This document shows positions 1,821 to 10,108 of a DNA stretch of 10,395 nt, piece after piece. The stretch spans positions 1 to 10,395 of the forward strand of contig CAIKYI010000599.1 of the NCBI GenBank assembly GCA_903831545.1, read 5' to 3'. The notes under the pieces were generated by a model that was given only the letters and a program-made list of their open reading frames with translations, was not told where the DNA came from and searched no databases. The translations under genes were made by a program, and so were the position numbers. This stretch comes from an uncultured Methylobacter sp. Its GTDB lineage: Bacteria > Pseudomonadota > Gammaproteobacteria > Methylococcales > Methylomonadaceae. Within the stretch, counting starts at the first letter, position 1. Every line of letters starts with the position of its first letter.

Positions 1821-3464
1821 ATGAAACAGCCTAATGTCACATCGGAGTCTAAAACCGAAGAATTTTTCAAGCTGACAGTAAAAAGTCCGGGGCAGACTTT
1901 ACAGATAGCCGCCAACTCAACGACCTCGGTACGCCTGGCGTTAGACACCACCAGCCTCAGGGTACGTGCAGCCTGCGGTGGCCTGGGCACCTGCGGTGCC
2001 TGTCTGATTCAGCTTGTCTGCGGCGATTTTAATCCCCCAACGGTAACTGAGCGGCAAAGAATTTTACCTGAAGATTTGGCCAGCGGCATGCGTTTGGCTT
2101 GCCAACTGCGCCCTCGCAGCAATGGGGAACTGTTTCTTGAATATCCTGCGCCGCATTCCGAATGGAAAAGTTTGGACGCATCCGATCTCTATGAGCCTTC
2201 GCATCATTATCCCGTTGATCATCATGTTTATGGCGTCGCCGTAGATTTGGGTACCACGCAAATCCGACTGTCTTTATGGAATCGTAAAACCGGACGGCGT
2301 ATCGCCACCCGCTATGGCATCAATCCCCAAATAGCCTATGGTGCCGACGTATTAACCAGGCTGGATGCTGACAGATTGGGGGATTTTGACAAAAACACCC
2401 TGACCCAACTCGCACGAAAAGCGATTATTGATGGCCTTCGCGATATATTGTGCCGCGATATGGGTGAAGTGTCACCGATACTGAACGAAATTGGTAAGGT
2501 GCTGATTGTTGGCAATACCGCTATGCTGACTTTGTTTTGTGGAGAAAACGGGGATAACCTTTATCAACCGGAAAACTGGCAGCAAAGTATCCACTGTCAG
2601 TTGACTGATGTCGATAGCTTGAAACTAGCCTGGCGTACCCCGCATGCCAATATTGCTATCGCACAGCCGCTGGCGGGTTTTATCGGTTCCGATCTATTGG
2701 CTGATTTGCTTGCAACGGCAATCACTGAGCAGTCTGAACCAATCATGTTGGCAGATTTTGGCACCAACACTGAAATTGCGCTTTGGGATGGACGAACCTT
2801 ATGGGCTACGTCTGTACCTGGTGGGCCAGCTTTTGAGGGTATCGGCTTACGTAATGGCATGTCGGGAGAAGCCGGTGCCATTAGCAAAGTGATCAAAGTT
2901 GACGGTGCCTGGCAATATCAGACAATTTCCAATGCGTCGCCACGGGGCTTTTGCGCTAGTGGCTATGTAGATGCCATCGCCATGCTTGTAAATGATCAGT
3001 CGCTTAAAGCATCAGGCCGTTTTGCCGAGCCGCTGTCAACCAGTGGTTTTCGTTTAGATGCCGACAATGCCCATACCGCTATTTATGGCGGTGATGTTGA
3101 TCTGTTTCAACGCGCCAAAGCGGCAACGGCTGCGGCCATGAGTCAATTATTGGCTATGTCTGGTCTGAGTAAAAATGATTTGCACAAGCTATGGATTTGC
3201 GGCTGTTTTGGACAACATCTTAATTTACCTAATGCCATAGCTTTAGGTCTTCTGCCAGACATCATTACCGAGCGCATTCGCGTACTTCCAAACGCCAGTC
3301 TTGCAGGTTGTGAAAAACTGTTGTTAAATCAGGATAGTGAAAATTTGGTTAAAGCCATTTATAGCCGTATTCACGTTATTAATCTAAGCTGTGTAGCAGA
3401 ATATGAGGAACGCTTTATTAATAATTTGCTTTTAAAACCAATGCCAATAGAGGAACATGACTAA
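1821..3464 (+). CDS. RACo-type corrinoid activation protein (2Fe-2S ferredoxin + ASKHA ATPase, DUF4445)
   Basis: This protein probably restores an inactive Co(II) corrinoid protein to Co(I) by ATP-dependent one-electron reduction. The N-terminus is a plant-type [2Fe-2S] domain with Cys52, Cys58, Cys61 and Cys94 (C-x5-C-x2-C, then C). The ASKHA fold follows: VAVDLGTTQIRLSLW (139-153) as the first phosphate motif, LIVGNTAML (228-236), ADFGTNTEIALWDG (311-324), PGGPAFEG (333-340) and CGCFGQHLNLPNAIALGLLPD-type C-terminal glycine motifs (460-480). At 547 residues it is shorter than the roughly 630 I recall for Carboxydothermus RACo; the stretch between the ferredoxin and ASKHA parts (about 95-137) looks reduced. 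An in-frame stop at 1815-1817 forces the start at 1821 or later, and no Shine-Dalgarno is evident there. Its stop overlaps the next start by one base (TAATG), and that next gene is its likely partner. The short name RACo is a family label; no gene symbol is assigned. Confidence 0.92.
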   Translation: MKQPNVTSESKTEEFFKLTVKSPGQTLQIAANSTTSVRLALDTTSLRVRAACGGLGTCGACLIQLVCGDFNPPTVTERQRILPEDLASGMRLACQLRPRSNGELFLEYPAPHSEWKSLDASDLYEPSHHYPVDHHVYGVAVDLGTTQIRLSLWNRKTGRRIATRYGINPQIAYGADVLTRLDADRLGDFDKNTLTQLARKAIIDGLRDILCRDMGEVSPILNEIGKVLIVGNTAMLTLFCGENGDNLYQPENWQQSIHCQLTDVDSLKLAWRTPHANIAIAQPLAGFIGSDLLADLLATAITEQSEPIMLADFGTNTEIALWDGRTLWATSVPGGPAFEGIGLRNGMSGEAGAISKVIKVDGAWQYQTISNASPRGFCASGYVDAIAMLVNDQSLKASGRFAEPLSTSGFRLDADNAHTAIYGGDVDLFQRAKAATAAAMSQLLAMSGLSKNDLHKLWICGCFGQHLNLPNAIALGLLPDIITERIRVLPNASLAGCEKLLLNQDSENLVKAIYSRIHVINLSCVAEYEERFINNLLLKPMPIEEHD

Positions 3465-4138
3465 TGCTGGAATCCTATATCCGCTCTTATAATGATGCAG
3501 TATTTGAAACCGATAAAGAAGCGGCGATGGCTGTGGTCAATAAAGCATTAGCGGATGGTGTGACCCCCGAAAATATTGTTTTCAGACTCATTATTCCTGC
3601 CATTGAAATGATGATGGCTATTATTGAAAAAGATCCTGATGCCAACCTGGCTCAGCATTTCATGACGGCTCAAATAGCCGCCGACGTTACGGAAAAGATG
3701 CTGGAGAAATTTAGCCAGCCGCCTGAGGTTATCGGACGTATTGTTATTGGTGCCGCGCACGGCGACCTTCATTCTTTAGGCAAACGCATTGTGAGTGGCT
3801 GTCTGAAGGCGTTGATGGTGGAGGTGATTGACCTTGGTGTCAATGTCAGCGCCGAACGCTTCGTTGACGCTGCGGTTAGCGAAAATGCGCAAGTCATAGC
3901 AATTTCAGCGATGATGGTTCACACCGCTACCGGAGAGAATGGCAGTCAGCGTGTACGTGCTTTGTTACAGGAACGTGGACTGGAACAGAAAATCAAGCTT
4001 GCAGTTGGTGGTGCGCCCTATCGTTTTGACCCGGAGCTTTATCGCAAAGTCGGTGCCGATGCCTGGGCTGCTGACGGAGTAACGGCAGGAAAAATGATTG
4101 TTAATCTGATCCGCGAGGTAAAAAATGACACCGCTTGA
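3464..4138 (+). CDS. Corrinoid (B12-binding) methyl-carrier protein, MtaC/MtbC-like
   Basis: This is a small soluble corrinoid protein that would carry a methyl group on cobalt between a substrate and an acceptor. Residues 1 to about 85 form the helical cap domain of methyltransferase corrinoid proteins; about 90-216 form the Rossmann-like B12-binding domain. The signature is complete: D101-x-H103-x-x-G106 (GDLHSLG), where His103 should be the lower cobalt ligand, then S148-x-M150 in place of the usual S-x-L, and G182-G183 in VGGAP. At 224 residues it is the usual family length. An AGGA at 3451-3454 lies nine bases before the ATG. It overlaps the activator stop by one base, and its own last 14 bases overlap the methyltransferase start, so the three are translationally coupled. 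The bound corrinoid cannot be told from sequence. Confidence 0.94.
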   Translation: MLESYIRSYNDAVFETDKEAAMAVVNKALADGVTPENIVFRLIIPAIEMMMAIIEKDPDANLAQHFMTAQIAADVTEKMLEKFSQPPEVIGRIVIGAAHGDLHSLGKRIVSGCLKALMVEVIDLGVNVSAERFVDAAVSENAQVIAISAMMVHTATGENGSQRVRALLQERGLEQKIKLAVGGAPYRFDPELYRKVGADAWAADGVTAGKMIVNLIREVKNDTA

Positions 4139-5153
4139 GATACTTGCCGCCGCAATCAACGGTAAACCAGCGCCGCGTATTCCAATATTTTGCAACCTGC
4201 TGGACCAAGGCGCACGCGAATTGGCCATGACTTCCAAAGATTACTTCAGCAATGGTGCACTTGTGGCCGAGGCACAACTAAAAATGCTGAAACGTTACGG
4301 CCATGATAATGTCTGGAGCTTGCATTATGTTGGCAAGGAAGCAGAATTACTGGGATGCAGGGAGATTCTGTTTGCCAATGACGGAGCTCCGAATGTGGCT
4401 GATTTTGTGATCAAGAGCCTGGACGACATCTCCCGTTTTGAGATACCCCCTGACATTACCCAAGTACCAGCCTGGCAGTCAGTTGCCAGTTGTTTGCAGA
4501 TATTGAAGTCTGAAATTGGCAATACCCATCCGATTTGCGCTTATGTCACGGCCTCAACGACTTTGCCGGTAATATTGATGGGCATGGAAAAATGGATGGA
4601 GCTATTTTTGCTCGGACCGTTCGAACTGCGTGATGAACTGTTGCGTAAATGCGCGGATTTTTTTCACCAGTACATTAGTGCATTACGGGCTGCCGGTGCC
4701 AACGTACTGGTGTATTCCTCGCCATTTGGTTCGCCGTATTTTTTAAGCCCGGACAAAATTAAAAAGATGGTGCTGCCCTGGATGAAGCATGATTTGGAAC
4801 CGGGCGGAGTGGCCGATGTCGTCTATTATTGTGGTATGGCTCCCTTTAATAATGTCATCGACCTGGTTTTTGACGAATTGCATATCACCAAGCACTATAC
4901 CAGTCCACTGGATGATTTAACGACAGCTAAACGTATAATAAATACACGTGGTTTAACTTGCGGCGTGATCGACGATATCAAAATGATACACTGGACAGTT
5001 GAAGAAACGCGGGCAGAAGTTAAGCGTATCATTGATATTGGTAAACCCGGCGGGCATTTTTTGTTCGGCAATGGCGTAATGCCTCTGGCTGTGCCTGAAG
5101 CCAATATACGGGCGATGGTGGATGCCGCTTTTGAATATGGTGGGCTGGAATGA
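4125..5153 (+). CDS. UroD-family corrinoid methyltransferase (MtaA/CmuA-like), altered zinc site
   Basis: This 342-residue protein has the uroporphyrinogen decarboxylase-like TIM barrel used by MtaA, MtbA and CmuA, and its position next to a corrinoid protein and activator argues for methyl transfer rather than haem synthesis. Family features include the N-terminal segment with RIPIFCNLL (18-26), SSPFGSPYFLSPD (198-210), VVYYCGMAPFNNVID (232-246), LDDLTTAKRI (262-271) and the C-terminal FGNGVMPLAVPEANI (314-328). In MtaA/MtbA the zinc is held by His-x-Cys and a later Cys in a GCG-like turn. Here the first is Tyr234-x-Cys236 and the turn is Gly315-Asn316-Gly317, so only one of three usual ligands remains. 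The substrate is therefore not assigned; methanol, methylamine, methyl halide or an O-methyl compound are all unproven. GAGG at 4115-4118 precedes the ATG by six bases. Its stop overlaps the next start (ATGA). Confidence 0.85.
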   Translation: MTPLEILAAAINGKPAPRIPIFCNLLDQGARELAMTSKDYFSNGALVAEAQLKMLKRYGHDNVWSLHYVGKEAELLGCREILFANDGAPNVADFVIKSLDDISRFEIPPDITQVPAWQSVASCLQILKSEIGNTHPICAYVTASTTLPVILMGMEKWMELFLLGPFELRDELLRKCADFFHQYISALRAAGANVLVYSSPFGSPYFLSPDKIKKMVLPWMKHDLEPGGVADVVYYCGMAPFNNVIDLVFDELHITKHYTSPLDDLTTAKRIINTRGLTCGVIDDIKMIHWTVEETRAEVKRIIDIGKPGGHFLFGNGVMPLAVPEANIRAMVDAAFEYGGLE

Positions 5154-5767
5154 AAAATTTTGTCATACAACAAGAAAAACAACCACCATTGGCAATGATC
5201 AGTTGCGGTATTTTGCATAAAGATGTCGACTTTCTGATCGAAAAAAACCATTGGAATGTCCATGCCCATTATCTGGACTCGGCTCTGCATAACTACCTGA
5301 ATCGACTTTCCCTTGAATTGAACAAGGCTCTGGATGAGAGCGAAAAGCGCGGTGAAAAAACCCTGGTGTTTTACGGTGGTTGCCATCCGTTAATGGACAA
5401 ATACCTGGAAGATCATCACACCTGTCGTACACACGGGCAAAATTGTATCGTTATGCTGCTGGGTTATGAATTATTTATGCAGGAATTGGAAAATGGCGCC
5501 TATTTTCTGTTGGAAGACTGGGCTTTAACCTGGGAACCGATGATTTCGGCCTGCTTCGGTGTTAACCTTACTGTAATTCGCGAAATTTTTCATAGTAGCC
5601 ATAAATATATCCTGGCTTTGCGTACACCTTGCAGTGCTGATTTTACCGAAGCCGCCGAAGCCGCTGCCCGTTTTGTCGATTTACCCCTGCAATGGATGGA
5701 TGTGGGCTTGGAGCACTTGGAATCGGTTCTGGCCGAAGCCATCCAACGTAGGCTCAGCGAGGAGTAA
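5150..5767 (+). CDS. DUF1638 domain protein associated with corrinoid methyltransferases
   Basis: The 205-residue protein matches DUF1638 by its conserved blocks: ISCGILHKDVD (17-27), HYLDSALHNYLNRL (40-53), VFYGGCHPLMDKYL (73-86) and the CRTHGQNCIVMLLG block (92-105). It has six cysteines (19, 78, 92, 99, 135, 161), the first four within the conserved blocks, which would suit metal, thiol or cobalt-related chemistry, but the biochemical function of this family is not established as far as I know. DUF1638 genes often sit beside MtaA-like methyltransferases, corrinoid proteins and their activators, which is what is seen here. No signal peptide or membrane segment is visible, so it is probably cytoplasmic. 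The start overlaps the methyltransferase stop as ATGA, and its stop overlaps the histidine kinase start as TAATG, so it physically bridges the methyl-transfer and signalling halves of the operon. Confidence 0.88.
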   Translation: MKNFVIQQEKQPPLAMISCGILHKDVDFLIEKNHWNVHAHYLDSALHNYLNRLSLELNKALDESEKRGEKTLVFYGGCHPLMDKYLEDHHTCRTHGQNCIVMLLGYELFMQELENGAYFLLEDWALTWEPMISACFGVNLTVIREIFHSSHKYILALRTPCSADFTEAAEAAARFVDLPLQWMDVGLEHLESVLAEAIQRRLSEE

Positions 5768-7746
5768 TGGAGCAACAGTTTTCAAACTCAGAGTTGCTGG
5801 CCATAAATGCTGACCTGAAAAATCGGGTTCGTAAACTTTCCGAAGAAAAAGCCAATCTTTTTCTGGTGCTGCACATGGTTGAGCAATTAAACCCGGTTGC
5901 TGGCATTGAAGGTTTCCTGGAAAGCTTGTTAACCGTATTGTGCAGCAATTTGGGCGGCAGCAATGTTGAAATTTACTATCTGGATGAATCAATTCATTAT
6001 GGTAGTCTGCTTGGTGAACGGCGCATACTTCAACAAATTGAGGACGGGTTGGTAAAGGATGTTTTTGAACATCATCACTTCGTCGAACATTCCACTGATT
6101 CGCAACATACCCTCCTGAAAGATAACTTTGCGGCAGTGGCCTGCACTTGGGTGATGCCCTTGCTGGTTGGCAAAGAATTGTTAGGTGTTATCAAAATAAC
6201 CGATATGCTGGGCTCGGCTCAGATGCGCGATTACCTTAGCCCCTTTTTTTCGCATATAGCGCTGATTTTAAACAATCAAATTAAAACTCGTATTGCCGAA
6301 ACGGCGAATAAAGCTAAAAGTAATTTCCTGGCTACCATGTCACATGAAATTCGTACGCCATTAAACGGCATACTTGGCATGGCACAATTGCTCAGCATGC
6401 AATGCGACCAGCCTGAAAATGTCCAGAACTATGCGCAAACCATTTTGTCTTCCGGACAAATGCTACTCACCTTATTGAATGACGTGCTTGATTTATCTAA
6501 AATCGAAGCCACCAAACTGGAACTAAGTTATTCGTCAAGCAATCCTGAAAATGTAGCGGATGAAATTTGCGCGTTGTTTTCCGAAAATGCCCGACGAAAG
6601 AAGTTGTTGCTTAATGCAACCTGGAATGGGAAAAAAGGGCAATATTATCTTCTTGATCCGGTCAGGGTAAGGCAAATGCTTTCCAATCTGGTCAGCAATG
6701 CCATTAAATTTACAGAAAAGGGCTTCATCCATATTGTTGTTGATGAAGTGAGTAGTAGCGGTGATCAGGCGCAACTGGAGTTCTCCGTGATTGATAGTGG
6801 TATTGGCGTGCCTTTGGCCAAACAGTGTTTATTGTTTAAGCCTTTTTCACAGCTTGACGATAGTTCGACGAGGCATTTTGGAGGTAGCGGATTAGGTCTT
6901 TCCATTGTTGATCGCTTTGCCACATTGATGGGTGGTTGTACCGGGGTTGAAAGCGACGAAGGTCAAGGCGCCCGTTTCTGGTTTCGAATTAAGGCCATAA
7001 AAGCCAGGAAAAACCAGTTCGTCGCAATACCCGAAAAGCCTGACTTGGGTGCTATGTCAGATAATAATCATCGCTCCTGGCATTTACTGATTGCCGATCA
7101 AAACACTTTAAGCAGCAATGTGATTGAAGCCATGTTGATTAAGCAAGGCATAACGGTTAGCCATGCCAAGAATGGCCGTGAAGCTGTCGACATTGCTATT
7201 GGCCAAGTGCCGGTTGATTTGGTGCTAATGGATTGTCAACTGCCTATGATCAGTGGTTATGAAGCTGCCCGCATGATACGTGCTTTTGAAGAGACCGGAC
7301 ATAAGGCGAGATTGCCAATCATTGCCCTGACAGATTCCGACTTAGAAGAAAATGGCGAGCGTTGCCGGCATGCCGGCATGGATGAAGTGCTGCTCAAGCC
7401 GGTTGAATATCAAAAACTATTGCTCACATTGTCCCGGTGGATAAAGATTCAGTCTGATTTGCCCATTTGCCTTCCTGATGCCATTACAACCAATATTTTC
7501 CCGGAAGAAAAAATCCTTGTGCAAAATAAACAAGAAATTTTAGGATTACTCGATGAGATTGATCAATTGCTAGCTAAAAACATGTTCAACGTAATTGACC
7601 AATTTAAACATCTGCAAAGTAATTTACTTGTTGGCCATGTTACTGCACCGCGTTTTAGTGCCATTGTCCAATTGGTTGATGAAATGAAATTTAAACAAGC
7701 CAGGTCCACATTGCAGGAACTTCGTTCTGCCTTGGGATGGATTTAA
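5767..7746 (+). CDS. Hybrid sensor histidine kinase (GAF-like, HisKA, HATPase, REC)
   Basis: This 659-residue kinase has no transmembrane segment and should sense a cytoplasmic signal. A coiled coil (about 5-35) leads into a GAF-like input domain (about 42-175). HisKA follows with the phospho-acceptor His193 in SHEIRTPLNG, then HATPase_c with the N box around N307 and N311, G1 DSGIGV (343-348), and G2 GGSGLGLS (372-379). The receiver domain (about 438-560) keeps the phospho-acceptor Asp489 (LMDCQLP), Thr522 and Lys544, but the acidic pair is Asp444-Gln445, not two acidic residues. The last 100 residues are helical with no His resembling an HPt site. GAGGAG at 5759-5764 lies two bases before the ATG, which overlaps the DUF1638 stop (TAATG). 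The adjacent downstream response regulator is the expected partner. The ligand is unknown; context suggests something linked to the corrinoid module. Confidence 0.93.
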   Translation: MEQQFSNSELLAINADLKNRVRKLSEEKANLFLVLHMVEQLNPVAGIEGFLESLLTVLCSNLGGSNVEIYYLDESIHYGSLLGERRILQQIEDGLVKDVFEHHHFVEHSTDSQHTLLKDNFAAVACTWVMPLLVGKELLGVIKITDMLGSAQMRDYLSPFFSHIALILNNQIKTRIAETANKAKSNFLATMSHEIRTPLNGILGMAQLLSMQCDQPENVQNYAQTILSSGQMLLTLLNDVLDLSKIEATKLELSYSSSNPENVADEICALFSENARRKKLLLNATWNGKKGQYYLLDPVRVRQMLSNLVSNAIKFTEKGFIHIVVDEVSSSGDQAQLEFSVIDSGIGVPLAKQCLLFKPFSQLDDSSTRHFGGSGLGLSIVDRFATLMGGCTGVESDEGQGARFWFRIKAIKARKNQFVAIPEKPDLGAMSDNNHRSWHLLIADQNTLSSNVIEAMLIKQGITVSHAKNGREAVDIAIGQVPVDLVLMDCQLPMISGYEAARMIRAFEETGHKARLPIIALTDSDLEENGERCRHAGMDEVLLKPVEYQKLLLTLSRWIKIQSDLPICLPDAITTNIFPEEKILVQNKQEILGLLDEIDQLLAKNMFNVIDQFKHLQSNLLVGHVTAPRFSAIVQLVDEMKFKQARSTLQELRSALGWI

Positions 7747-7757
7747 AGAAGCGTAGA

Positions 7758-9887
7758 ATGAATAAAAAATTATTTACAATTCTGGTAATTGACGATGTGC
7801 CTGACAATTTGGCATTGTTGGGGCAAGCGCTTAAAGATACTTATTCGATACAAATCGCCACCTCCGGTGCCGAAGGTTTGGAATTGGCGTATAACGATCC
7901 CCCCGATCTCATTCTGCTCGATATCATGATGCCAGACATGGATGGCTACGAGGTCTGCAGCCTATTCAAGGCAGATAGTGCATTTAAGGATATACCAATC
8001 ATTTTTCTAACGGCCTTAAGCGAAGTTTCTTCAGAAACCAAAGGTTTGACCTTGGGTGCCGCTGACTACCTAACGAAACCAATCAATATAGAAATAGCCC
8101 GGTTGCGCATTAAAAACCTGTTGGAACGGGAACAAATGCGCCGGGAATTATTTCGGCAGAAATCTGATTTGCTGCTTGCCGCCAGTGTTTTTGCTAACAC
8201 CCATGATGGCATTGTCATTACCGACGCCAACAATAAAATTATTGAGGTCAATTCAGCGTTCTCACGGATTACTGGCTATCAGCGTGAAGAAATATTGGGT
8301 AAAAATCCAAGCGTATTAAAGTCAGGGCGTCAATCGGTCGAGTTTTACAATGTCTTGTGGCAGTCATTACTGACTCTTGATCACTGGGGCGGAGAGCTAT
8401 GGAACAGAAATAAAAGTGGCGAAATATACGCGGCATTAACCTCCATTTCGATCGTGCGCGATGAACAAGGTAATATTCATCATTTTATTGGTTTGTTTAC
8501 CGATATTACCCCACAGAAAAATCATGAATACGATCTTGAGCGTATTGCTCATTTTGATCCTTTGACTGGCATTCCCAACCGTCTTTTGTTAGCGGATCGT
8601 CTTAACCATGCCATTGTCCAGCTCCAGCGAACAAAAGATTTTATGGCCGTTTGCTATCTTGATTTGGACGGCTTTAAACCTGTCAACGATCAATTCGGCC
8701 ATGGGGTAGGCGATCAGTTGCTCATTGAAATTTCGTTACGCATTCAGGATTGTCTGCGTGCTGGTGACACGATTGCACGAATCGGCGGCGACGAATTTGT
8801 ATTATTGCTGCTTGGCCTCAATGAAATAGCGGATTGCGAGGCTATCTTGAACCGGACTTTGCATAAAATAGCAGAACCTGCCGTTATTGACGGCCACTGT
8901 GTTGCTGTTTCTGCCAGTCTGGGCTATACCGTTTTTCCGGGCGATCCGGTTGATGCTGACACCTTGCTCCGTCATGCCGATCAGGCCATGTATATTGCAA
9001 AACAGGGTGGTAAAAACCGTTGCCAATTCTTCGACCCAAAACATGATCGCATCGCCACAGAGAGGGGTGAGTCAATAGTTCGCATTGAAGCGGCGTTACA
9101 CAACAATGAATTCACCTTATATTTTCAACCTAAGGTTAATATGCCTTCCGGTCAGATTTTCGGGGTAGAAGCGCTAATACGCTGGAATCATCCTGAGCGC
9201 GGCTTGTTGTCGCCTGCCGAATTTCTTCCGATTATCGAAAATACCAAAATGATGGTAGATGTCGGCAATTGGGTATTTCGAAAGGCCTTCGAGCATATGC
9301 AAGCCTGGCAAGAGCAAGGTTTGCATATAGTCACCAGCATCAATGTTGCGCCCTATCATCTGTTGTATCCCGATTTTGTCCAATTTTTAAAAGAAGATCT
9401 GCATGACTACCCGTCATTGCAGCCTTCTTGTCTGGAACTGGAAATTTTGGAAACCGCCATGCTTGAAGATATAGGCAGGGTCACAGCAATAATGAATGAA
9501 TGCAGGGCACTTGGAATTGCTTTCTCCTTGGATGATTTTGGAACCGGCTATTCCTCTTTAACCTATTTGAAAGCGTTACCCGCCGAAACCTTAAAAATTG
9601 ACCAATCTTTTATTCGTGATATGTTGTGCGATCAGGAAGATCTTGCCATTGTTGAAGGCATTATCCGTTTAAGCGCCTCTTTTCACCGGCAGGTGATTGC
9701 CGAAGGGGTAGAAACCGTGGAACACGGAGTACAGTTGTTGAAACTGGGTTGTGAGAACGCTCAAGGGTATGGCATCGCTCGTCCCATGCCCGCAGAGCAG
9801 CTGCCCGAGTGGATTAAGAATTGGAAAGTGCCTGATGAATGGAAATCTCCATCTCCATCTTCAGCAGTATATAAAGGCTCAAGATGA
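7758..9887 (+). CDS. Response regulator with PAS, GGDEF and EAL domains (c-di-GMP turnover)
   Basis: This 709-residue protein turns a phosphorelay signal into a change in c-di-GMP. The receiver (about 4-125) has a full active site: Asp12-Asp13, phospho-acceptor Asp55, Thr85, Lys107. A PAS domain (about 137-255) follows. The GGDEF domain (about 260-428) has an intact GGDEF (343-347) with an RAGD inhibitory site just upstream (334-337). The EAL domain (about 440-690) keeps EALIRW (471-476), Asn529, Glu562, Asp592-Asp593 in DDFGTGYSSL, Lys613, AEGVET around Glu649 and Gln669. Both activities are therefore possible and the net direction cannot be read from sequence. The start at 7758 is preferred because AAGAAG sits six bases upstream; the in-frame ATG at 7737 would overlap the histidine kinase by 10 bases and add seven residues (MDLKKRR), with no clear ribosome site. 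The stop overlaps the next gene's start (ATGA). Confidence 0.94.
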   Translation: MNKKLFTILVIDDVPDNLALLGQALKDTYSIQIATSGAEGLELAYNDPPDLILLDIMMPDMDGYEVCSLFKADSAFKDIPIIFLTALSEVSSETKGLTLGAADYLTKPINIEIARLRIKNLLEREQMRRELFRQKSDLLLAASVFANTHDGIVITDANNKIIEVNSAFSRITGYQREEILGKNPSVLKSGRQSVEFYNVLWQSLLTLDHWGGELWNRNKSGEIYAALTSISIVRDEQGNIHHFIGLFTDITPQKNHEYDLERIAHFDPLTGIPNRLLLADRLNHAIVQLQRTKDFMAVCYLDLDGFKPVNDQFGHGVGDQLLIEISLRIQDCLRAGDTIARIGGDEFVLLLLGLNEIADCEAILNRTLHKIAEPAVIDGHCVAVSASLGYTVFPGDPVDADTLLRHADQAMYIAKQGGKNRCQFFDPKHDRIATERGESIVRIEAALHNNEFTLYFQPKVNMPSGQIFGVEALIRWNHPERGLLSPAEFLPIIENTKMMVDVGNWVFRKAFEHMQAWQEQGLHIVTSINVAPYHLLYPDFVQFLKEDLHDYPSLQPSCLELEILETAMLEDIGRVTAIMNECRALGIAFSLDDFGTGYSSLTYLKALPAETLKIDQSFIRDMLCDQEDLAIVEGIIRLSASFHRQVIAEGVETVEHGVQLLKLGCENAQGYGIARPMPAEQLPEWIKNWKVPDEWKSPSPSSAVYKGSR

Positions 9888-10108
9888 GTAGAGTAAGATG
9901 GTCGGTTGTAGTTCCTGAAGCCACTGATAAAGCACTACGCAACTATCTGGCAGGAAATGGTATGAAAAAAGGTGATATTTCCCATTTTATTGATGAAGCA
10001 GTTCAGCTGCATCTTTTCGATTTGGTGACAGGCAAAGTGAAGATGCACAATAAACAATTCAATCAGGATGTCATTCTTGCTGCTATTGAAGAAGCTGTTT
10101 TTCATTAA
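9884..10108 (+). CDS. Small ribbon-helix-helix (CopG/XACb0070-like) protein
   Basis: This 74-residue protein has an N-terminal beta strand (RVRWSVVVPEATDKALRNYL) followed by two helices and a conserved tail, an arrangement like ribbon-helix-helix DNA-binding proteins; the wording of the strand and the HFIDEAVQLHLFD helix recalls the XACb0070-like RHH family. Such proteins bind DNA as dimers and serve as repressors or antitoxins. No toxin-like partner is adjacent. Its ATG overlaps the response regulator stop by four bases (ATGA), so it is the last gene of the corrinoid/signalling operon and could be an autoregulator of it, which is inference. No T-rich terminator hairpin directly follows the stop at 10106-10108. 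Confidence 0.75.
   Translation: MSRVRWSVVVPEATDKALRNYLAGNGMKKGDISHFIDEAVQLHLFDLVTGKVKMHNKQFNQDVILAAIEEAVFH

Follow-up and report, generated by a model that had tools for sequence, protein, structure and literature searches.

The stretch of DNA analysed here (the window) is a contig of 10,395 nucleotides from a metagenome-assembled genome (MAG; 3.64 Mb, 72.7% complete) of an uncultured Methylobacter species. It carries a four-gene corrinoid module, encoding a corrinoid activator (RACo), a corrinoid protein, a UroD-family protein and a DUF1638 protein, which we consider here as a candidate sensory device. The module is followed by the genes of a hybrid histidine kinase with an N-terminal GAF domain, of a response regulator for the turnover of cyclic diguanylate (c-di-GMP), and of a ribbon-helix-helix (RHH) protein (Table 1). 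The original prediction had listed these seven genes and their tight junctions, and both are borne out by the open reading frames (ORFs), the Pfam matches and our reading of the junctions. Successive genes meet at TAATG (3462-3466), in a 14-base overlap, at ATGA (5150-5153), at TAATG (5765-5769) and finally at ATGA (9884-9887), while the kinase and response regulator genes share a 10-base overlap, or are separated by an 11-base gap if translation starts at the ATG at 7758. From these overlaps alone we infer co-transcription of the operon. Promoter-like and terminator-like sites in the window were no commoner than in shuffled sequences, and scans of the window gave no Rfam family match and no tRNA.

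Table 1. Features of the window, with positions counted from its first nucleotide.
Feature	Positions	Strand	Basis
RACo/RamA-type corrinoid activator with N-terminal 2Fe-2S domain (Fer2, RACo middle, RACo C-terminal)	1821..3464	+	Pfam; nearest solved structures 3zyy, 4c1n
Corrinoid (B12-binding) protein, D-x-H-x-x-G at residues 101-106	3464..4138	+	Pfam and motif
UroD-family protein without two of the three MtaA-type zinc ligand positions (Tyr234, Cys236, Asn316)	4125..5153	+	Pfam; alignment to MtaA 4ay7
DUF1638 protein, presumed corrinoid reactivation partner	5150..5767	+	Pfam; fitness link (PMC5764234); AlphaFold model, predicted local distance difference test (pLDDT) 89.9
Module-specific GAF sensor domain with N-terminal helix (kinase residues 1-175)	5767..6291	+	Model with pLDDT 87, GAF fold
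Soluble hybrid histidine kinase: GAF, HisKA (phospho-acceptor His193), HATPase, REC (Asp489), C-terminal helical part	5767..7746	+	Pfam, motifs
Response regulator REC-PAS-GGDEF-EAL; REC Asp62; RxxD then GGDEF, EAL, catalytic motifs intact	7737..9887	+	Pfam, motifs
RHH_6 ribbon-helix-helix protein, ATGA overlap with GGDEF-EAL stop	9884..10108	+	Pfam
Ser/Thr protein kinase gene, upstream of and divergent from the operon, runs off contig end	3-1343	-	Pfam

The third protein of the module belongs to the URO-D family (PF01208, 136 bits against a cut-off of 23.9), and scored 73 bits against NCBIfam TIGR01463, below the cut-off of 235.4. Its sole solved relative found was MtaA (4ay7). The zinc site of MtaA, which we take to consist of a His-x-Cys pair and a C-terminal Cys, was read off the alignment with 4ay7. 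The position of the zinc His is occupied by Tyr in 127/128 UroD copies, and that of the last Cys by Thr, Asn or Ser in 127/128 as well; the first Cys is retained in 112/128. This is not an enzyme in decay, because ~78 positions are 95% conserved among 58 copies.

The middle and C-terminal ASKHA domains and the Fe-S domain of RACo scored 179.2, 95.1 and 31.2 bits, all above the Pfam cut-offs, and a Cys-rich ferredoxin motif (ACGGLGTCGAC) lies at residue 51; the protein is predicted to have ATP-dependent activity. The corrinoid protein scored 98.9 bits against NCBIfam TIGR02370, below the cut-off of 215.3, and the D, H and G of its corrinoid motif are all kept in 124/124 aligned copies. The DUF1638 protein scored 103.1 bits against PF07796 (cut-off 27); neither a fold search with it (down to an E-value of 0.001) nor a search of plasmids gave a match. 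In Phaeobacter, a RamA-like protein and a DUF1638 protein were both cofit with the split methionine synthase, which links them to B12 reactivation (Price et al., 2018; PMC5764234). By analogy, RACo and DUF1638 would belong with corrinoid reactivation, a role that is presumed for DUF1638.

The sensor domain of the kinase, originally described as GAF-like, has a true GAF fold according to the structural model (pLDDT 87), with a conserved N-terminal helix, although the window copy falls below both Pfam cut-offs (19.8 against 28.6 bits and 19.2 against 22.4 bits). A PocR domain had no match in the window copy of the kinase; one of the 54 members matched, with a best E of 0.014. The SHEIRTP motif of the kinase is intact, and so are the response regulator motifs, with RAGD followed by GGDEF, EAL and DDFGTGYSS. 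With these motifs, the response regulator would be of the bifunctional GGDEF-EAL kind.

The link between module and signalling genes is conserved within Methylococcales (hereafter the order), of which 301 genomes were searched. A strong match to DUF1638 (E 1e-50 or better) was present in 52 of them. We used 53 of the 59 places with a DUF1638 match: every strong one apart from that of the window itself, with five weak matches (E between 1e-7 and 3e-4) set aside. The GAF domain of the window kinase was found at 47 of these 53 other loci. It is missing at L049, which has neither UroD nor kinase, at L083, L085, L086 and L091, where the kinase lacks it, and at L090, which has no kinase. A search for the GAF domain alone, in which scoring was limited to the best 12 candidates in some genomes and the set E-values were the limit for counting, gave 51 matches in 50/301 genomes (E up to 1e-8). 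DUF1638 is 49-157 bp away from 48 of these matches; the remaining three (L271-L273) have UroD and corrinoid genes as neighbours but no DUF1638. Counted by genome, strong DUF1638 and GAF matches occur together in 47, DUF1638 only in 5, the domain only in 3 and neither in 246. A REC match in the same ORF was found for 28/48 GAF kinases of the order, so phosphate may pass with or without an internal REC domain. Relatives of the kinase include entries under the names Methylotuvimicrobium buryatense and Methylomonas.

Hence, the seven-gene unit proposed originally is conserved in its link between module and signalling genes, but not in its last gene. The RHH gene had no match in the 53 relatives (tblastn, E 1e-4) and, among the 54 order loci, occurs only in the window; it is therefore a local addition, and the RHH protein is ruled out as a member of the system. 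The divergent Ser/Thr kinase gene likewise had no match in the 53 order loci. The window copy of DUF1638 (5150-5767) shares 82-85% identity with those of genus group g4 but ~50% with most copies of its own genus (L015-type Methylobacter loci), which suggests transfer of the locus between genera.

The same arrangement extends far beyond the order. A scan with the UroD alignment, using one genome per species, recovered loci by their UroD pattern and not by their kinase, and the best 80 of 139 relatives were kept. Their hosts, as labelled in the records, belong to many phyla and include Mariprofundus, Desulfuromonadaceae, Geobacter, Nitrospirae, Chloroflexi, Verrucomicrobia, Hydrogenedentes, Gallionellales, Rhodocyclaceae, Magnetococcales and others. 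Within 4.5 kb downstream, the window-type GAF domain was present at 64 of these best 80 loci and absent at 12; the sequence was too short at 4. DUF1638 was found at 66 and RACo at 45 of the best 80, where some absences reflect contig ends. Two of the loci, L197 and L198, have a near-identical gene order in records labelled Bacteroidales and Alphaproteobacteria, respectively; one label is probably wrong.

For the pooled counts, 15 groups of identical UroD were merged (143 loci became 128 distinct ones) and 7 short loci were dropped, leaving 121 informative loci. Domain calls were scripted with hidden Markov models built from these loci, where the HD-GYP model was seeded from three Pfam-confirmed proteins. 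The original prediction had named modules nearly always lacking signalling genes as the result that would speak against it. The opposite was found: at 118/121 informative distinct UroD loci, a signalling gene on the same strand follows within 5 kb. The window-type GAF domain occurs at 106/121 of them (47/51 in the order and 59/70 outside). Moreover, the pairing is exclusive. In Magnetococcia, the GAF domain was found in 6/48 genomes and UroD in the same six; in Zetaproteobacteria, it was found in 4/78 genomes and UroD in the same four, with all ten GAF-UroD pairs less than 700 bp apart. For the three groups together, all 61 matches of the GAF-alone search in 427 genomes adjoin the module.

Control loci did not share this neighbourhood. 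We took 40 further DUF1638 loci from the class and phylum, chosen to cover families and not at random, of which 30 were without this UroD protein and had a corrinoid protein of only ~60 bits or none. None of these 30 loci, of which 28 had 2 kb of sequence or more, had a downstream signalling gene, and none of the 269 genes in them had a signalling gene within 5 kb. Among distant upstream genes in module loci, 7/34 have a signalling gene within 5 kb, so the neighbourhoods of the module are themselves rich in signalling genes. A chance neighbourhood is rejected both by the co-location of GAF and DUF1638 in the order and by the control loci (0/30 and 0/269).

The GAF domain also appears to have evolved together with the UroD protein. 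Using the rank correlation of pairwise distances as a measure of co-evolution, in 78 loci with all parts, we obtained 0.80 for UroD and the corrinoid protein, 0.78 for UroD and GAF, and 0.60 for UroD and the kinase domain on the same polypeptide as the GAF. Outside the order (36 loci), the contrast was larger, with 0.78 for UroD-GAF vs 0.38 for UroD-kinase, and in both sets the difference between these two correlations exceeded zero in 500/500 resamplings. The correlation between DUF1638 and GAF was 0.58. The corrinoid protein reverses the pattern, with 0.60 for the GAF domain and 0.73 for the kinase domain, which is unexplained. Residue 236 of UroD tells the classes apart: 105/108 copies with Cys have the GAF domain, and 12/12 copies with Val are without it. 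Correlations and residue pattern together indicate that the GAF domain is partly separable from the kinase domain and follows the UroD protein. The Val236 clade includes L083, L085, L086, L227, L229, L239-L241, L247 and L259, most of which have a downstream kinase without the window-type GAF domain. The corrinoid protein and UroD are encoded in one ORF at L227, L229, L239, L240, L241 and L247.

What lies behind the GAF domain varies. DUF1638, GAF and kinase form a single ORF at L245 and L267, and GAF-PAS-GGDEF-EAL is a single ORF at L246, L255 and L269; in the fusions on which Pfam was run (L245, L246, L267), GAF was below the cut-off or unlisted. At L254, L212 and L225, a response regulator is of the HD-GYP type (HD_5). 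At loci with at least 4.5 kb of sequence, counting the same strand within 8 kb downstream (for HD-GYP also upstream), a c-di-GMP domain (GGDEF, EAL or HD-GYP) was present at 38/49 loci in the order vs 12/63 outside; the REC-PAS-GGDEF-EAL architecture itself also stands beside 26/49 order loci. The c-di-GMP output foreseen by the original prediction thus holds as the usual case within the order, but applies to a minority elsewhere. In the Mariprofundus-type loci L176, L177 and L191, a GAF-PAS protein without a kinase domain is followed by an NMT1-like lipoprotein and then by a separate hybrid kinase, so that periplasmic and corrinoid inputs may meet there.

Among the other neighbours of the module, the families present at 4 or more of the 76 outside loci were MCP chemoreceptors (7), NMT1-like (6) and phosphonate-type (5) binding proteins, CheW (5) and TonB receptors (4). 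One member of each recurring family was checked with Pfam, and some of the top 22 families listed are artefacts of antisense ORFs. Among these 22, no metabolic family or second methyltransferase reached 4/76 outside loci. A GAPDH-like family occurred at two outside loci and one order locus. A pterin-binding MTII was found neither by Pfam among the window ORFs scanned nor in the top 22 families of the 76 outside loci.

Our results thus identify a conserved core, which is the module plus the GAF domain, combined with c-di-GMP turnover as the usual output in the order and a minority output elsewhere. We consider it likely that a two-component system with a swappable output has the four-gene corrinoid module as its detection unit. 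This reading is suggested by gene order, motifs, the exclusive GAF-UroD pairing across phyla, co-evolution, fusions and the lack of a recurring metabolic gene. In such a system, RACo and DUF1638 would keep the corrinoid protein reactive, as Co(I), and a small ligand would bind to the zinc-less UroD-like protein. The fold of this protein and the corrinoid suggest that the ligand is most simply a methyl donor; the protein would either load the corrinoid or read its methylation state. The kinase may then detect the altered UroD-corrinoid complex through its N-terminal helix and GAF domain, and phosphate would pass from His193, via or past the REC domain of the kinase, to Asp62 of the REC-PAS-GGDEF-EAL protein, which would set the level of c-di-GMP. 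The original suggestion that the corrinoid module is the signal source for the GAF kinase therefore appears better supported by these genomic patterns than plain joint expression.

Several observations weigh against a detection unit. Three of the 121 informative loci (L090, L164, L221) have no nearby signalling gene, and 12 further ones have a kinase without the window-type GAF domain. The Val236 copies form one clade (at least 73% identity), so the association of Val with the lack of GAF represents few events. L049, in genome G074, keeps RACo, the corrinoid protein and DUF1638 without UroD and GAF kinase. The same genome has a second locus, L082, with corrinoid protein, UroD, DUF1638 and GAF kinase. 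The MetH activation domain (PF02965) had no match in the source MAG at its 72.7% completeness, whereas 7/14 control genomes matched; a housekeeping use of RACo and DUF1638 is therefore possible there. PF02461 (AMO/PmoA) had no match in the source MAG nor in any control genome and is hence uninformative.

An alternative explanation might be that the module is a catabolic or salvage methyltransferase operon, which the two-component genes just regulate or with which they are co-expressed. The strong conservation of the UroD residues and barrel fits this explanation too, as it would be expected for an enzyme. Yet, no metabolic family recurs in the outside neighbourhoods as described above, the output at 38/49 order loci is c-di-GMP turnover and not a DNA-binding regulator, and one type of sensor domain goes with one type of UroD. 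The hosts, moreover, include Mariprofundus, Gallionellales and Magnetococcales, among which we know of no methylotrophs. A precedent for ordinary gene regulation exists in the mec cassette, where a PocR kinase and a receiver protein lie beside corrinoid and UroD proteins, which shows that kinases for this purpose can be part of corrinoid operons (PMC9768040). With the precedent taken into account, we still regard a regulated catabolic operon as unlikely.

Instead of an external methyl donor, the system might sense the supply of corrinoid, its oxidation state or a low redox potential, with the module reporting whether Co(I) can be maintained. RACo with its 2Fe-2S domain and DUF1638 are built into the module, many host names suggest organisms of redox gradients, and PMC5764234 ties DUF1638 and a RamA-like protein to B12 reactivation. 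We give such a sensor little credence, however, because the GAF domain tracks UroD (0.78) better than the corrinoid protein (0.60) or DUF1638 (0.58), and because RACo was not found near 35 and DUF1638 near 14 of the best 80 loci, some of these at contig ends. Information might also flow in reverse, with the kinase or c-di-GMP pathway controlling the methyltransferase as its effector. Although this would give an identical operon architecture, it seems very improbable: the input domain is the conserved partner while outputs vary (kinase, GGDEF-EAL, HD-GYP, MCP neighbours), and DUF1638 is fused upstream of GAF at L245 and L267.

Extending the reading of the module as a detection unit, we lean, with more caution, towards the view that these loci represent a widespread unnamed sensory class. 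In this class, a complete corrinoid methyl-transfer enzyme would act as receptor. A dedicated GAF domain would register either its catalysis, with a methylated small molecule as substrate, or whether the corrinoid is methylated, and would relay this to outputs that can be exchanged, namely a kinase, c-di-GMP turnover and possibly chemotaxis. If this is true, a B12 enzyme serves as receptor in bacteria ranging from methanotrophs to iron oxidisers, and many UroD-corrinoid gene pairs annotated as methyltransferase metabolism belong to signalling. DUF1638 and this type of GAF domain would also gain a role that can be tested, and in methanotrophs C1 or methyl chemistry would be linked to the control of lifestyle by c-di-GMP.

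A literature search, which covered few subscription papers, found no paper in which a corrinoid methyltransferase is described as feeding into a GAF kinase or into c-di-GMP. The methyltransferases MtaA and CmuA share the URO-D family with the protein described here, in which the zinc His and the last zinc Cys are replaced. In Methanosarcina, kinases of the MsmS type are methyltransferase-associated, heme-based sensors that control methyltransferase genes. Split methionine synthase and glycine betaine demethylase resemble the module in combining a corrinoid protein with a RamA-like activator and DUF1638 (PMC5764234, PMC12478193). However, DUF1638 loci of that kind are without this UroD and had no downstream signalling gene (0/30).

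The original prediction held that corrinoid methyltransferase operons do not usually carry a soluble phosphorelay. This needs qualification, as the mec cassette (MecA-J) of anaerobic dichloromethane degraders has a two-component pair (PMC9768040). The mec cassette is the nearest published arrangement, a single cluster that encodes corrinoid, UroD-family and reactivation proteins along with a two-component pair (PMC9768040, PMC10344839). Database relatives of MecC are reported at <40.4% identity (PMC10344839), and hence the UroD protein described here is not a close relative of MecC. Particular to mec, according to the same sources, are MecA with its PocR domain, a pair described as transcriptional, the tetrahydrofolate-dependent MTII MecF, three UroD proteins and a catabolic path. 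The window module, in contrast, combines a GAF domain and c-di-GMP output with one zinc-less UroD protein and no recurring MTII.

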